64,000 nucleotides of DNA, taken from Clostridia bacterium (GTDB lineage: Bacteria; Bacillota; Peptococcia; DRI-13; SM3-B62). The notes under the pieces are model-generated. The model was not told the DNA's origin. It was given only the letters and a program-made list of their open reading frames with translations, and searched no databases. The DNA is taken from the NCBI GenBank assembly GCA_018432615.1, contig JAHDSQ010000017.1, positions 1-64,000 on the forward strand. Reading direction: 5' to 3'. Of this stretch, positions 9,852-54,568 are shown one piece after another. The position numbers and the translations under genes were made by a program. The stretch's first letter is position 1; the number at the start of each line of letters is the position of its first letter.

Positions 9852-9946
9852 GGAGAGATGGCCGAGTTGGCTGAAGGCGGTCGCCTGCTAAGCGATTATA
9901 CGGGCTTAAACCTGTATCGAGGGTTCGAATCCCTCTCTCTCCGCCA
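9852..9946 (+). tRNA. tRNA-Ser(GCT)
   Basis: A long-variable-arm (class II) tRNA. The acceptor stem GGAGAGA/TCTCTCC closes with an encoded CCA at 9944-9946. The anticodon loop in CGCCTGCTAAGCG gives anticodon GCT (codons AGC/AGU). The GGTTCGAATCC T-arm is present. Confidence 0.93.
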
Positions 9947-9960
9947 CTTTTAGTTGTTGT

Positions 9961-10037
9961 GTGCCCGTAGCTCAGCTGGATAGAGTATTTGACTACGAAT
10001 CAAAGGGTCGCAGGTTCGAATCCTGCCGGGCACGCCA
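9961..10037 (+). tRNA. tRNA-Arg(ACG)
   Basis: A 77-nt tRNA with acceptor GTGCCCG/CGGGCAC, encoded CCA, and T-arm GGTTCGAATCC. The anticodon stem TTTGA/TCAAA encloses anticodon ACG. Its A34 is the classic substrate for deamination to inosine by TadA, whose gene lies about 230 bp downstream. Confidence 0.93.
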
Positions 10038-10105
10038 TTTTATTAACTGAATCCGGTCAACTGCCGGTGATTATCGGTGAGTGGCCGTTTTTCTCTCGTT
10101 TTGTA

Positions 10106-10135
10106 TTGATTTGCAGATAAAAGAATAGTTATGTT
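10106..10135 (+). promoter_or_regulatory. Possible promoter of tRNA-Arg(CCT) and tadA
   Basis: -35 TTGATT (10106-10111), 18-bp spacer, -10 TATGTT (10130-10135), ten bases before the tRNA. The -10 is imperfect. A GC-rich stretch followed by TTTTT at 10055-10092 may partly terminate the upstream tRNA transcript. Confidence 0.35.
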
Positions 10136-10145
10136 ATTTTTGAGT

Positions 10146-10224
10146 GCGCCCGTAGCTCAGTTGGATAGAGCGGCGGATTCCTAATCCGCGTCTGCCGCAG
10201 GTTCGAGTCCTGCCTGGCGCACCA
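10146..10224 (+). tRNA. tRNA-Arg(CCT)
   Basis: Acceptor GCGCCCG/CTGGCGC (one C:T mismatch), with an encoded ACCA end. The anticodon stem GCGGA/TCCGC holds the loop TTCCTAA, giving anticodon CCT (codon AGG). Forty bases upstream of tadA. Confidence 0.9.
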
Positions 10225-10264
10225 TTTTAATACCTGTAATTATTGAGAAACAGGGGATATTTTC

Positions 10265-10723
10265 ATGGATTATGAACAATATATGAGAGAAGCTATGCAG
10301 GAAGCGAAAAAAGCGCTGGCCTTAGGGGAAGTTCCCGTGGGCGCAGTAGTGGTTTTAAACGATGTGATCATCGGACGTGGCTACAACCGCAAGGAAAACG
10401 ACCACGATCCTACTTCCCATGCGGAGATTATCGCTTTGCGGGAGGCTGCTAAAAGACAAAAGAGTTGGCGACTCAACGGAGCAACTCTTTTTGTGACTCT
10501 TGAGCCATGTCCGATGTGTGCCGGAGCCATGCTGCAAAGCCGTATTGAACGAGTTGTCTTCGGAGTTGATGATCCTAAAGCGGGGGCGGCGGGAACTTTA
10601 ATAAATCTGCTGCAATTTCCCGGTTTTAATCACGAACTGAAGATAGTGGCGGGTGTGTTGGAAAAAGAGGCACAGGAACTACTACAGGGTTTTTTCAGCA
10701 ACATGCGAAAAGAAAAGTCCTAG
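10265..10723 (+). CDS. tadA: tRNA-specific adenosine-34 deaminase
   Basis: A 152-aa zinc deaminase that converts A34 of tRNA-Arg(ACG) to inosine, so that one tRNA reads CGU, CGC and CGA. The zinc/catalytic residues are visible: HAE (His52, Glu54) and PCPMC (Cys82, Cys85). The length is normal. The gene follows two tRNA-Arg genes, one of them its own substrate. A weak purine-rich ribosome site (CAGGGGATATTTTC) precedes the ATG. A strong terminator follows, so tadA closes this transcript. Confidence 0.95.
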   Translation: MDYEQYMREAMQEAKKALALGEVPVGAVVVLNDVIIGRGYNRKENDHDPTSHAEIIALREAAKRQKSWRLNGATLFVTLEPCPMCAGAMLQSRIERVVFGVDDPKAGAAGTLINLLQFPGFNHELKIVAGVLEKEAQELLQGFFSNMRKEKS

Positions 10724-10731
10724 AAAACCAT

Positions 10732-10757
10732 AAACCTGCCTTGCGAAGGCAGGTTTT
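10732..10757 (+). terminator. Rho-independent terminator after tadA
   Basis: An 11-bp perfect stem, AAACCTGCCTT/AAGGCAGGTTT, with a GCG loop and a T tail. Confidence 0.85.
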
Positions 10758-10847
10758 GTATAATAAGCATTCCCTATTTCGATAAGGGAACAAAATTTCA
10801 CAATTTGCGTCAGGGGATATAGAATAAATAATAATGAAGGTGATAGG

Positions 10848-11543
10848 ATGTTAAAAAAGATGATGCTGGTAATTTTGGTTATTGGAGCGGCAGCTGTACT
10901 GTTTGCCGGTTGCAATTTATTAAATCGCGAGGATACTCAGAACACCGATCCCGTCAAAGGGAAATTAACTTATGAAGCCATTGAGTCCGACTCCGCAAAA
11001 TTTACAGAGTTGAACAAAGACGACTTCAAGAAGTGGTACGAGGAAAACTATGAGAATGAAGGAGTTTATTCCTTGTCCTTGGATGATAAAACATACGTCC
11101 TGATAAGTGCCGGGGAAAAACCCACCGGTGGCTATGATATTGAAAATGTGGTTTTGATCGGGGAGGAAAATGAAATATCCGTAGCGGCAGAGATTTCATC
11201 CCCTGCCGCCGACGAGATTGTTACCATGGCCCTTACGTATCCCCATGTTTTGTTAGCAATACAAGAGGATGCAAGACCCTTTGTTCTAAAAGAACTTAAG
11301 ATAGCAGACGAGAACAAAAAAGATTCAGGGACATACGTAGGGCGAATAGATAATAACTCCATAGAAATCAAAATCAGCGGGGTTCCGGAAGAAAACGCTC
11401 ATCGTGCTTTCCAGCTTAGTGAAGAGCTCAAAGAAAATCTGGACTCTCTGGGGATCCATGAGGGAGATGCGGTTTTATTTGCGTACACGACTAATGATCA
11501 GGTGCGTCCTGTTATTATTGAAATCGAAAAGATAAAAAATTAG
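10848..11543 (+). CDS. Lipoprotein with PrcB-like domain
   Basis: A 231-aa predicted lipoprotein. The signal peptide ends in a lipobox, VLFAGC, with Cys about residue 22. The middle part (roughly 60-145) carries the phrase EKPTGGYDIENVVLIGEENEISVAAEIS read in pieces, typical of the PrcB C-terminal domain (small protease-complex-associated beta domain). The C-terminal 70 residues look like an additional small beta domain, with GTYVGRIDNNSIEIKI. Probably anchored outside the membrane; no enzyme motif is seen. GAAGGTGATAGG precedes the ATG. Confidence 0.65.
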   Translation: MLKKMMLVILVIGAAAVLFAGCNLLNREDTQNTDPVKGKLTYEAIESDSAKFTELNKDDFKKWYEENYENEGVYSLSLDDKTYVLISAGEKPTGGYDIENVVLIGEENEISVAAEISSPAADEIVTMALTYPHVLLAIQEDARPFVLKELKIADENKKDSGTYVGRIDNNSIEIKISGVPEENAHRAFQLSEELKENLDSLGIHEGDAVLFAYTTNDQVRPVIIEIEKIKN

Positions 11544-11566
11544 GCAAGAAATTTCTTTGAGTTTTG

Positions 11567-11575
11567 TGGTATAAT
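11567..11575 (+). promoter_or_regulatory. Extended -10 promoter of tRNA-Ser(CGA)
   Basis: TGGTATAAT is a perfect extended -10 element, with no good -35 at 17 bp. Between it and the tRNA, a CCTTAAC (11589-11595)/GTTAAGG (11624-11630) inverted repeat may form a leader hairpin. Confidence 0.5.
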
Positions 11576-11637
11576 ATTTTTCAGTTGTCCTTAACTTACA
11601 GTCCGACAATATGAGGGCTATAGGTTAAGGCTGTTGA

Positions 11638-11727
11638 GGAGAGGTGGCCGAGTCCGGTTGAAGGCGCACGACTCGAAATCGTGTGACTGTAACAGGTCCG
11701 TGGGTTCGAATCCCACCCTCTCCGCCA
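11638..11727 (+). tRNA. tRNA-Ser(CGA)
   Basis: A class II tRNA with acceptor GGAGAGG/CCTCTCC and an encoded CCA. The anticodon stem CACGA/TCGTG with loop CTCGAAA gives anticodon CGA (codon UCG). Long variable arm; T-arm GGTTCGAATCC. Its 3' side borders a patch of decayed genes. Confidence 0.93.
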
Positions 11728-50813: not shown

Positions 50814-52208
50814 ATGTCGGATAAAAAGTCGAATGAGTCATTGCGAAGACTTCCTGCGATGCATAAGATTTTAAATGCTGAGAAGGGAAGGGAATTAACA
50901 GAACAGTACGGTCGTCAACTGGTAGTGACGGCTGTTGACGAGGTGCTTGATGAAGTAAGAAAAAGCCTCTTATCTCTTGAGAAGAAAGAAAAGACCGGTG
51001 CTTCTTTAGACATGGTGCTGGATAGAGTTGAAAATCATTTGGCGGGATTAGCTCAGACCTCCCTGAGGAGAGTAATTAACGCGACAGGAGTGCTTCTGCA
51101 TACAAATATGGGAAGAGCAGTTCTGAGCAAAAAGGCACAGGAGGCCTTACTTGTGGCTGCAAGTGGCTATACTAACCTCGAATATGACCTGGAACGGGGA
51201 GAACGGGGCTCGCGTTATGAACATGTGGAAAAGCTTTTGCTTCGTTTAACTAAAGCAGAAAGCGCATTGGTGGTAAATAACAATGCCGGTGCCGTCTTAT
51301 TGGCGATTAATACCCTTGCAAAGGGAAAAGAGGCTATAGTATCCAGAGGCGAATTGGTGGAAATAGGCGGGTCCTTTCGAGTTCCTGAGGTTATGAAACT
51401 GGGAGGAGCGAAACTGGTTGAGGTAGGGACTACGAATAGGACGCATTTGGCCGATTACAAGCAAGCGATTAGTGATGATACGGCGGCTATTCTCAAGGTT
51501 CACACCAGTAATTTCCGCATCGTAGGTTTCTCAAAGTCGGTTGAGAGAAAGGAATTGCTTGAACTTGCGCATAGTAAGGAACTTCCCTTGATTGAAGATT
51601 TAGGGAGCGGCTCGTTCTTAGATTTTTCCCAGGAGGAAGCAACCGTTTTTGAGGTGATTGCCACAGGTGTTGATGTAGTGACCTTTAGCGGTGACAAGCT
51701 TTTGGGTGGCCCGCAGGCCGGTATTTTGCTGGGGAAGAAAGAATATATTGAGGCTATGAAAAAGAATCAACTGGCAAGGGCTCTGCGTGTTGATAAATTC
51801 ACTCTTGCAGCTTTGGAAGCAACCCTTTTGGAATACTTGTCTCCGGAAAAGGCGATGGAGAACGTTCCTCTTTACAGAATGTTGAACGCCCCGGTTGAAA
51901 TGCTTCGTGAAAAGGCAGAAGCCATAGCCACGGAAGTGAATCGGGGCCGGGAAAGGATTAAGGTTATTCCTATTCCGACAAAGGCGCAAATGGGAGGAGG
52001 AAGTATTCCCGGGCAGGAGTTCCCTTCGTATGGGCTGGATATAAGCTGTGAAGGGAAAAGTCCCATGGAGTTGGAAGGGCATTTTCGCAGTCTTCCGATT
52101 CCCATTATCGGCTATATTGAGCGTGAACGATATATCATGGATTTGCGTACCGTTTTACCCGGCGAGGAAGAAGTAATCATTAACGGGATTAGACTGGCAG
52201 GTGGATGA
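50814..52208 (+). CDS. selA: L-seryl-tRNA(Sec) selenium transferase
   Basis: A 464-aa PLP enzyme that converts Ser-tRNA(Sec) to Sec-tRNA(Sec) with selenophosphate. LRRLPAMHKIL at the N-terminus, RRVINATGVLLHTNMGRA, NNNAGAVLLAINTLA, the PLP-Lys in VTFSGDKLLGGPQAG, and the C-terminal MDLRTVLPGEEE are characteristic. ATG 50814 and GTG 50811 are both behind GGAGGAGGG. selB, selD and tRNA-Sec are not in the window; they normally sit nearby. Its end overlaps the convergent L,D-transpeptidase by 20 bp. Confidence 0.93.
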   Translation: MSDKKSNESLRRLPAMHKILNAEKGRELTEQYGRQLVVTAVDEVLDEVRKSLLSLEKKEKTGASLDMVLDRVENHLAGLAQTSLRRVINATGVLLHTNMGRAVLSKKAQEALLVAASGYTNLEYDLERGERGSRYEHVEKLLLRLTKAESALVVNNNAGAVLLAINTLAKGKEAIVSRGELVEIGGSFRVPEVMKLGGAKLVEVGTTNRTHLADYKQAISDDTAAILKVHTSNFRIVGFSKSVERKELLELAHSKELPLIEDLGSGSFLDFSQEEATVFEVIATGVDVVTFSGDKLLGGPQAGILLGKKEYIEAMKKNQLARALRVDKFTLAALEATLLEYLSPEKAMENVPLYRMLNAPVEMLREKAEAIATEVNRGRERIKVIPIPTKAQMGGGSIPGQEFPSYGLDISCEGKSPMELEGHFRSLPIPIIGYIERERYIMDLRTVLPGEEEVIINGIRLAGG

Positions 52209-52713
52209 TGTCTCCCGGGAAAATCAGGTCCGGATTAATATGTGGGTTTAGTCTGATGATTTCGTTTGCGCTTGTGCCGTGCATGCGTGCTATTGACCAG
52301 AGTGTATCACCTTTTCTTACGGTATAGCTTTTTCCGCCGTGCTGTTGCCCCTGGGCTCCCCTTGAGATTTCAACGCTTGTTCCAATAGGTATGAGGGGGA
52401 AAATTCCTTCGACGTCGTTATTATACATTCTGATACATCCCAGGGATACAGCTTTACCGATAGCACTGGGGTTGTTGTTGCCATGTATGCCGTAAGAGTC
52501 ATTGTTTAGACCCATCCAACGGGTACCAAAGACAGTGCCCTTTGTAAGTATTTTTTTATTAATGATTTTCCAATTTCCGATAGGCGATGGTGTAGCGGGC
52601 TTGCCGATGGCTATTCTATAAGAGCCGTATAAGCCGTTCCCTTTGTATAAGTGCAAGTATCGGCTGTTGAGATCAATTTTTATCGACATTCCACCTGACG
52701 ACAATTTGAACAT
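52189..52713 (-). CDS. L,D-transpeptidase (YkuD) with C-terminal LysM
   Basis: 174 aa. A YkuD domain (residues about 9-120) carries the active-site pattern HGNN...SLGCIRMYNND with the catalytic Cys. A LysM repeat (YTVRKGDTLWSIARMHG...) at the C-terminus anchors it to peptidoglycan. It would make 3-3 crosslinks in cell wall or spore cortex. No signal peptide, like other short spore-type YkuD proteins. Two starts are possible: ATG 52713, or ATG 52689, which has AGGTGG just upstream. Confidence 0.88.
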   Translation of the reverse strand: MFKLSSGGMSIKIDLNSRYLHLYKGNGLYGSYRIAIGKPATPSPIGNWKIINKKILTKGTVFGTRWMGLNNDSYGIHGNNNPSAIGKAVSLGCIRMYNNDVEGIFPLIPIGTSVEISRGAQGQQHGGKSYTVRKGDTLWSIARMHGTSANEIIRLNPHINPDLIFPGDIIHLPV

Positions 52714-52776
52714 CCTTTCTGAACGATGACTAATTTATAAATGATATGCTGAATCAAAAGAGTTTAAAACCGATTG

Positions 52777-52826
52777 TTAAGGGCATGTTAAGAAATTGTT
52801 AAGAGATGCTTAATCACCTGTTAAAT
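52777..52826 (+). promoter_or_regulatory. Pho box: five TTAA repeats at 11-bp spacing
   Basis: TTAAGG, TTAAGA, TTAAGA, TTAATC and TTAAAT begin at 52777, 52788, 52799, 52810 and 52821, each exactly 11 bp apart. PhoP of Bacillus binds direct TTAACA-like repeats with this period. The last repeat is near the -35 position of a weak -10 (TATATC, 52845-52850). Confidence 0.75.
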
Positions 52827-52891
52827 TTATTGAAAAAAGAGTAGTATATCAGCGTAGGTACAAACACAAAGCACAGGCATAATGAAAGGAA

Positions 52892-54568
52892 ATGGCAATC
52901 ATGGAAATAACTGCTCAGCAAATCATCTTTTACTTTTCAGGCGGATTGGCATTTTTCTTGTTTGGGATAAGGCAGATGTCGGACGGTTTAAAAGGCTTGG
53001 CAGGTGATAAATTACGAGCGTTGCTGGAAAAAGGTACAAAAACACCGCTGAGGGGAGTTATTACCGGAATGCTGGTAACAGCGTTGATCCAGAGCAGTTC
53101 GGGAACTACCGTATTAACTGTTGGTCTGGTAAACTCAGGTTTACTTACACTGCGACAGGCGGTCGGTATTGTCATGGGAGCCAATATAGGGACAACCATT
53201 ACCGCTTATTTGATTGGATTCAAATTGGAATATTATGCTTTACCAATACTGGCGACGGGTGCTTTGCTGATGCTGTTTAGCAAGAACAAAAAAGTCAGTA
53301 CAATCGGTAAGGTCTTATTTGGTTTTGGGATGCTTTTTCACGGCATGCAGACCATGGGAAGCGGGTTGAAGCCCTTGCGGAACATGCCATTCTTTGTTAA
53401 CGCCATGACAGGGATTGAGTCCCATGCCTTGATGGGGGTACTGGTTGGAACGGCATTTACCGGGATAGTACAAAGCAGTAGTGCAACTATCGGTGTTTTG
53501 CAGGAACTTGCTTACCAAGGAGCTATTACATACACTCAGGCCGTGCCTATCTTGTTTGGCGATAACATCGGAACGACCATTACTGCCTTGCTGGCTTCAA
53601 TAGGGACATCAGTGGCGGCAAAAAGGACAGCCTTATCCCATTGTATCTTTAATTTATTGGGTACTCTTATTTTCTTGCCGCTTTTTGTTTTAGGAATATT
53701 TCCGGAGATAGTGCGATTATTTACAGACTATATATACGTACTGCTACCGGGTGCTGAAGGAACCTGGCAGACTTTAAACATAAAAATGCAATTGGCGCAA
53801 ACTCACGGTGTCTTCAATATTAGCAATGCACTGATACAGTTGCCCTTTGTAGCAGTGTTAACAGCTATTGTGAGTAAGATTATTACGGGAGAGGATATCA
53901 TCGTTGAATTTGAACCAAAGTACTTGGAACCGAGATTTTTAGACAATCCCTCGGTTGCTTTGGCTCAAGCCGGTAGAGAGGTTCTAAGGATGGGGGACGT
54001 GGCCAAACAATCATTTGAGCATGCTATCACCTATTTCTTCACAGGTCTGGAAAATGAGGCGGAACAAACGGATAGTTTGGAAGAGGTAGTTGATAATTTA
54101 CAAAACAGGATTACGGATTATATCGTAAAGTTATCGGAGAAGCAGTTGTCGATTGAAGAGTCAAACTATGCATATATGTATATTCAGGCAGTAAATGATA
54201 TTGAAAGGGTCGGAGATCACGTTGAGAATATTGTTGAACTGACCCATGCCAGGAAAGAGCGTGGGGTTCGTTTTTCCATTGATGCCATGGCCGATATGAG
54301 GAAAATGATCGATAAGACTATGGAGACGTACCAGTGGGCCTTGGAAAGCTTGAAAAACAAGGATTTAAAGCTGGCGCAAAAAGTTGTTGAAAACGATGAC
54401 AGCATTGATGAAATGGAGAGGGATTTCCGCAGGGGCCACATTGATAGGCTGAATGCAGGTACTTGCAGTGGTGATGCCGGAGCCATCTATATAGACATTT
54501 TGAGCAATTTGGAGCGTATCGGGGATCATTCGGTCAATATTGCTCAGTACGTGATGGGGGCACGTTAG
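52892..54568 (+). CDS. Na/Pi cotransporter with PhoU-like C-terminus
   Basis: A 558-aa membrane transporter importing phosphate with sodium. Two inverted repeats with the QSSS substrate motif (LIQSSSGTTVLTVGLVNSG and IVQSSSATIGVLQELAYQG) and GANIGTTITAYLIG/GDNIGTTITALLAS partners; about nine helices in residues 1-330. The C-terminal 200 residues form two PhoU-like helical repeats (NDIERVGDHVENIV, LSNLERIGDHSVNIA). AAAGGAA precedes the ATG. Behind a five-repeat Pho box, so it is probably induced under phosphate limitation. Confidence 0.9.
   Translation: MAIMEITAQQIIFYFSGGLAFFLFGIRQMSDGLKGLAGDKLRALLEKGTKTPLRGVITGMLVTALIQSSSGTTVLTVGLVNSGLLTLRQAVGIVMGANIGTTITAYLIGFKLEYYALPILATGALLMLFSKNKKVSTIGKVLFGFGMLFHGMQTMGSGLKPLRNMPFFVNAMTGIESHALMGVLVGTAFTGIVQSSSATIGVLQELAYQGAITYTQAVPILFGDNIGTTITALLASIGTSVAAKRTALSHCIFNLLGTLIFLPLFVLGIFPEIVRLFTDYIYVLLPGAEGTWQTLNIKMQLAQTHGVFNISNALIQLPFVAVLTAIVSKIITGEDIIVEFEPKYLEPRFLDNPSVALAQAGREVLRMGDVAKQSFEHAITYFFTGLENEAEQTDSLEEVVDNLQNRITDYIVKLSEKQLSIEESNYAYMYIQAVNDIERVGDHVENIVELTHARKERGVRFSIDAMADMRKMIDKTMETYQWALESLKNKDLKLAQKVVENDDSIDEMERDFRRGHIDRLNAGTCSGDAGAIYIDILSNLERIGDHSVNIAQYVMGAR

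Follow-up and report, generated by a model that had tools for sequence, protein, structure and literature searches.

A candidate PhoP operator of reversed polarity upstream of a Na/Pi symporter gene in a Clostridia bacterium

The window analyzed in this study is a stretch of 64,000 nucleotides from the genome of a Clostridia bacterium (contig JAHDSQ010000017.1). An array of short repeats lies in it between two divergent genes, one for an L,D-transpeptidase and the other for a Na/Pi symporter that carries its own PhoU domains. The features of this locus are as follows.

52189..52713, minus strand: gene of an L,D-transpeptidase (YkuD) with a LysM domain, the divergent neighbour, which we do not regard as the target of the array
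52775..52780, plus strand: candidate PhoP unit 1, TGTTAA (TTAACA on the minus strand); TGTTAA in 9 of 9 aligned relatives
52786..52791, plus strand: candidate PhoP unit 2, TGTTAA; TGTWAA in 9 of 9 aligned relatives
52797..52802, plus strand: candidate PhoP unit 3, TGTTAA; NKTWAA in 9 of 9 aligned relatives
52808..52813, plus strand: unit 4, GCTTAA; most relatives have a degenerate unit here
52819..52824, plus strand: unit 5, TGTTAA, coinciding with the -35 position; TANNAT follows after 17 bp in 8 of 9 genomes
52842..52847, plus strand: putative -10 of the Na/Pi promoter, TAGTAT, 17 bp after unit 5
52892..54568, plus strand: gene of the Na/Pi symporter (PF02690) with C-terminal PhoU domains (PF01895); TIGR00704, NF037997; 558 aa

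The first ATG of the symporter reading frame (52892) sits only 2 nt past an AAAGG (window 52885-52903). Translation probably starts instead at the ATG of 52901, with this AAAGG 11 nt upstream, where the relatives begin too. No Rfam family matched in the array region. Elsewhere in the window, four tRNA genes are found at 9852-11724 on the plus strand.

The five TTAA cores of the array (52777-52824) begin at 52777, 52788, 52799, 52810 and 52821 on the plus strand, and the period is exactly 11 bp. The sequence-only reading had described five TTAA-started units with a weak -10 behind them, and both points were borne out, the -10 matching TATAAT at four of six positions. That reading had also taken the hexamers TTAAGG, TTAAGA, TTAAGA, TTAATC and TTAAAT for the Bacillus consensus, and this assignment does not hold. 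The PhoP consensus reported for Firmicutes is TT(T/A/C)ACA (PMC6327384), and it is the minus strand of the array that carries such TTNACA-type units, reading TTAACA in four of the five. A matrix and a model trained on pst promoters also detect the array. By the measures of a sigma-A promoter, the spacing of 17 bp lies within the norm of 16-18 bp, while the -10 has four and the -35 two of six matches.

Compared with five TGTTAA units at an 11-bp period, the array has 28 of 30 matches. A Pho box contains at least two direct repeats at this period; the array contains five, and none of 300 dinucleotide-preserving shuffles of the 333-base upstream region reached its score. It is the top score of the 64-kb window, followed by its own shifted registers and then by a score of 21. 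We also searched the whole genome (3,164,657 bases, 70 contigs). The pattern TTAA-N7-TTAA-N7-TTAA occurred in the array, in three overlapping registers, and at one other place (C59:40896), and the control pattern did not occur at all. TGTTAA-N5-TGTTAA-N5-TGTTAA with up to 2 mismatches was found in the array only. With 3 mismatches, there were seven places besides the registers of the array itself, compared with three for the control, and one of the seven is the pstS promoter. The array is not a chance occurrence.

We then consider how far the array is conserved. A search with the Na/Pi protein in 25 genomes of the order gave a match at E <= 0.001 in 21, and 13 of them hold an orthologue of at least 66% identity. 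Upstream regions were scored in 29 cases, 24 from the genomes of the order and 5 from named contigs; of these 5, L037, L056 and L041 duplicate, going by length, contigs of G012, G013 and G009. The array precedes the orthologous gene in 10 of the 13 genomes, and its score exceeded all 300 shuffles in G000 (the genome of the window), G001, G002, G003, G007, G009, G011, G012, G013 and G024. The partial array of L050 likewise scored above 300 of 300 shuffles. The remaining scores were p = 0.003 in G006, where the units are poor, 0.010 in L046, where the array is partial, 0.077 in G005 and 0.97 in G008. No array was seen by eye in the 330 upstream bases of L047, L042-L045, L048, L049 or L051-L055.

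In the alignment of nine promoters (A2, made without the near copy G001), units 1-3 hardly vary, whereas unit 4 is degenerate; unit 5 is mostly TGTWMA-like and missing in G007. TANNAT stands exactly 17 bp past unit 5 in eight of the nine. The spacers vary between units and between genomes, and the units and the distance to the -10 are constant. The pattern TGTWAA-N5-TGTWAA-N6-KTWAA, allowing no mismatch, was found at 10 places in 24 genomes (G007 excluded), nine of which are the Na/Pi promoter. The array of five is therefore better called three strong units followed by a weak one and by a fifth that falls on the -35.

The pst promoters of the same order served as a comparison. Of 18 loci, 14 were scored; L109-L112 were dropped because the match begins inside the gene. 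These promoters have four TTWACA-like units on the coding strand at an 11-bp period, followed by 9 bp to the -10. This canonical geometry was found in 13 of 14, namely in 11 by script and in G011 and G013 once their frames, which the script had set two units upstream, were moved by 22 bases without a change of register; G024 showed no such fit and is not part of A1. The Na/Pi units are oriented opposite to the pst units of the same genomes, and lie 17 bp rather than 9 bp from the -10. The matrix of pst units preferred the reversed reading of the Na/Pi units in nine of nine genomes, with sums of 13.2 to 38.3 against -18.2 to 17.8.

The same relation was obtained with two home-made models, whose E-values are to be taken as rough. 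R1 was built from 13 pst promoters only and run over 25 genomes. In the genome of the window, it placed the pst promoter first (E 2.3e-7, a member of the training set) and the Na/Pi array second, on the minus strand (E 0.013). The ranking was the same in G001, with the array second (E 0.017), a result that is not independent because G001 is a near copy. The matches of R1 to the array were weaker in G012 (E 0.44) and G007 (E 0.46). R2, built from 9 Na/Pi promoters, matched pst promoters solely on the strand opposite to the gene (L105, L098, L099, L097, L108 and L106; E 0.002-0.77). In the K-12 record of Escherichia coli, phoA and pstS carry TGTCAC 16 bases before TATAGT and TATTTT, respectively, and the TCAC at -14 takes the same place as TAACA in the pst promoters of the order; in this comparison, it was we who chose the -10 elements and equated TCAYA with TNACA. 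A canonical activated Pho promoter has TTNACA units on the coding strand and 9 bp to the -10, and the Na/Pi array has neither. From the reversed units and the distance of 17 bp, we regard the array as a Pho box, but not as a canonical activated Pho promoter.

The genome of the window contains nine full and two marginal matches to OmpR-type regulators. The search for PhoP and PhoR that the sequence-only reading had proposed led to one pair, in contig C25:

G000:C25:61008-61706: candidate PhoP regulator, with a kinase gene directly downstream

The kinase scored 413.2 bits with the PnpS model, above the cut-off of 400, and 372.1 bits with WalK, below the cut-off of 725. The best models of the regulator are both below their cut-offs: YycF with 267.2 bits (cut-off 340) and PhoB with 250.9 bits (cut-off 296.2). 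The gene order regulator-kinase-pstB-phoU was found in five of nine loci read (G002, G003, G011, G012 and G013); the identity of pstB and phoU comes from a Pfam scan in G002 and elsewhere from likeness and PhoU matches. The pair lies in the same neighbourhood but without pstB-phoU in G000, G007 and G009, and in G024 the contig stops right after the regulator gene. Because pstB-phoU follows in five genomes, we take the C25 pair as PhoP-PhoR, the phosphate regulator, so that the cognate pair expected with a Pho box is present in the genome.

An orthologue of this PhoP (68-98% identical) is present in G001-G004, G007, G009-G013 and G024, and none was found at E <= 1e-62 in G005, G006 and G008. 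The array and PhoP occur together in 10 of 10 genomes, against 0 of 3 without PhoP (the weak array score of G006 being noted). Because the three genomes that have neither form one clade, this co-occurrence counts as one evolutionary event. The pstS search found none in G005, G006, G008 and G009; G009 has kept both the array and PhoP. Taking these results together, we think that the array very probably serves PhoP as an operator of the Na/Pi gene, be its action positive or negative. The earlier proposal of a Bacillus PhoP pattern with one extra unit stands in that the operator is of PhoP type; it does not stand as to direction, which is the opposite, or as to the number of units, since unit 4 is degenerate and unit 5 is the -35, 17 bp from the -10.

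A PhoP operator of reversed geometry makes the phosphate-starvation control predicted by that reading likely; the sign is possibly repression, which that reading did not consider. PhoP~P would bind in tandem, head to tail, to units 1-3 and weakly to units 4-5, upstream of and over the Na/Pi -35; tandem oligomers on direct repeats are reported for regulators of this family (PMC4832192). At pst, the same units in canonical polarity, ending 9 bp before the -10, give an activating geometry. At the Na/Pi promoter, PhoP~P would most likely block RNA polymerase, because the direction of the units is inverted and the -35 is covered by the last of them. The symporter, presumably of low affinity, would be made in plentiful phosphate and shut down as Pst switches on. 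That is, the units face opposite to those of the high-affinity importer Pst, and starvation turning the low-affinity transporter down is the likeliest reading.

Several points are consistent with this mechanism. G008, in which units 1-4 are gone and PhoP was not found, keeps the core TGTTCA-17 bp-TAAGAT (R2 positions 28-77, 21.9 bits), which suggests that the Na/Pi core promoter works without PhoP; the argument comes from one genome, 92% complete, and R2 found no match in the clade mates G005 and G006. NptA of Streptococcus pneumoniae is described as a low-affinity transporter with a role in high phosphate (PMC4913102), the pit gene of Sinorhizobium meliloti as repressed under phosphate stress, reciprocally to Pst (PMC8829014), and tagAB of Bacillus subtilis as repressed by PhoP~P (PMC6232261). 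We thus lean, by a little, toward a PhoP operator that represses the Na/Pi symporter in low phosphate, reciprocally to pst, and consider repression more likely than activation.

The main competitor is activation from the same operator. That is, PhoP~P on units 1-4 might recruit RNA polymerase and induce the Na/Pi gene at low phosphate, with a contact to alpha-CTD or sigma in a reversed mode; induction is also what the sequence-only reading implied. This is a real possibility, but one we hold to be the less probable. Three points tell against repression and for activation: units 1-3, the strongest, are placed upstream of the -35 and the core promoter, the usual place of an activator (in general terms, PMC4168254 puts the sites of positively regulated genes there); the -35 is poor in all 10 array promoters that were read, with 2-3 of 6 matches, which suits an activated promoter; and pitH2 of Streptomyces, a PhoP-regulated low-affinity transporter gene, is reported to need PhoP for expression (PMC7866108). 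In addition, one clade has lost the array, PhoP and pst together. However, activation has to contend with a polarity opposite to that of the pst, alkaline phosphatase and PAP2 promoters and of E. coli phoA and pstS, and with the core promoter of G008, which is unimproved but kept where PhoP was not found.

Repression by PhoP~P can be widened to a rule in which the polarity of a PhoP array sets the sign: within this order, a single regulator and a single hexamer would act forwards at pst for activation and backwards at the Na/Pi-PhoU gene for repression, giving a reciprocal switch between high- and low-affinity transport. The matches nearest to the consensus unit are those of the reversed array, which on this view might be the first to respond. 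We offer this generalization tentatively and regard it as rather unlikely. If it held, one could predict from the sequence alone, by the direction in which a tandem operator runs, whether expression of a phosphate gene rises or falls, which would correct the habit of taking every Pho box for an inducer; a transporter carrying its own PhoU domains would also be tied to PhoP control. The two aligned promoter sets in one clade, pst forwards and Na/Pi backwards, allow a direct test of the polarity idea.

The site might instead belong to a WalR/YycF-type regulator of cell-wall genes. The array matches the published box TGTWAH-N5-TGTWAH (PMC4168254), sharing its half-site and 11-bp period, the top NCBIfam model of the regulator is YycF (267 bits) over PhoB (251), and the neighbour is an L,D-transpeptidase gene. 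But both regulator scores are below their cut-offs, and the kinase, the sole one scored among the pairs, passes PnpS (413 against 400) and is far under WalK (372 against 725). The linkage of the regulator to pstB and phoU in five genomes and the presence of the motif before pstS also speak against WalR-WalK, and we judge it very improbable.

Still less probable is that the array acts on the divergent L,D-transpeptidase gene, although the TTAACA units point towards that gene and it shares the intergenic region in most genomes. On that side there is no good -10 at the canonical 9 bp (0-4 of 6), whereas the -10 on the Na/Pi side stands at a fixed distance; in G002, G003 and G007, the ldt start lies about 575-880 bases before the Na/Pi start, and the array remains with the Na/Pi gene. 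That the array is an 11-bp tandem repeat of selfish or accidental origin, with no part in regulation, like the dispersed TGTTAAACTAT repeats of G007 (75 pattern matches there, 38 forward and 37 reverse, including the Na/Pi array and a few unrelated ones), is hardly credible, since the spacers differ among units and genomes while the units and the -10 distance are fixed, and the strict matches in 24 other genomes are nearly all at one promoter.

Four units are usual in the PhoP boxes of Firmicutes. The array resembles the boxes of B. subtilis PhoPR and E. coli PhoB in its 11-bp direct repeats of a TTNACA-type unit, in the PhoP-PhoR pair with pstB-phoU linkage and in its phosphate transport gene. 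It differs from them in being reversed relative to the promoter, in having a -35 unit 17 bp from the -10, and in consisting of three strong units with a degenerate fourth. The repression of a gene unwanted in low phosphate, as proposed here, has its like in tagAB, which is a different target; control of a low-affinity phosphate transporter opposite to Pst has its like in S. meliloti pit, which belongs to the Pit family and is under a proteobacterial PhoB. Pho boxes themselves are known, and a conserved reversed array overlapping the -35 before a Na/Pi-PhoU symporter gene appears to be a variant of them. No reversed array before a Na/Pi gene was found in the literature searched, from which subscription papers were mostly absent, and this does not prove that none has been described.

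Other arrays were sought with patterns and with a model built on sequence only. The sequence-only reading had asked for such arrays, and they occur upstream of pstS and, probably, of a gene for a PAP2-family phosphatase. In the latter case, a canonical array with TATAAT stands directly before the gene in the genome of the window (L246:1402-1455, G000:C44:58401-58454; R1 E 0.48), which makes this a possible further Pho gene. A canonical four-unit array with a -10 precedes an alkaline phosphatase gene (PF00245) in G023 (L249:1195-1248, contig C29; R1 E 0.0089). Besides pst and Na/Pi, six R1 matches were examined (three in G000 and one each in G023, G013 and G012). Those at the PAP2 and alkaline phosphatase genes are plausible; the other four lie in or beside unrelated genes and were taken as chance.

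A strict reversed array was also found 100 bp upstream of a Pit phosphate transporter gene (PF01384) in G019 (L171:856-883, contig C42). It was considered as a further case of a low-affinity transporter under a reversed array and set aside as a lead only, because it is absent in G020, of the same genus, and in G015, and because about one strict match is expected by chance over the genomes, as estimated from 36 one-mismatch control matches outside G007.

In G007, 11-bp tandem repeats of TGTTAAACTAT/TGTTAAACCAT are dispersed over many contigs (e.g., C77:8747-8807 and C225:148-197; L180 and L207) and mimic PhoP boxes. In the pst promoter region of G024 (L108, C9:6747-6830), the R1 matches overlap on both strands. 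The same genome has a tandem Na/Pi duplicate (C22:9031-12480; L069 and L088), each copy being 76% identical to that of the window, with an array before the first copy only. Finally, two remote Na/Pi relatives from one genus (L084, G022:C64:45560-47179, and L085, G023:C37:105794-107413) have one in-frame TAG each.
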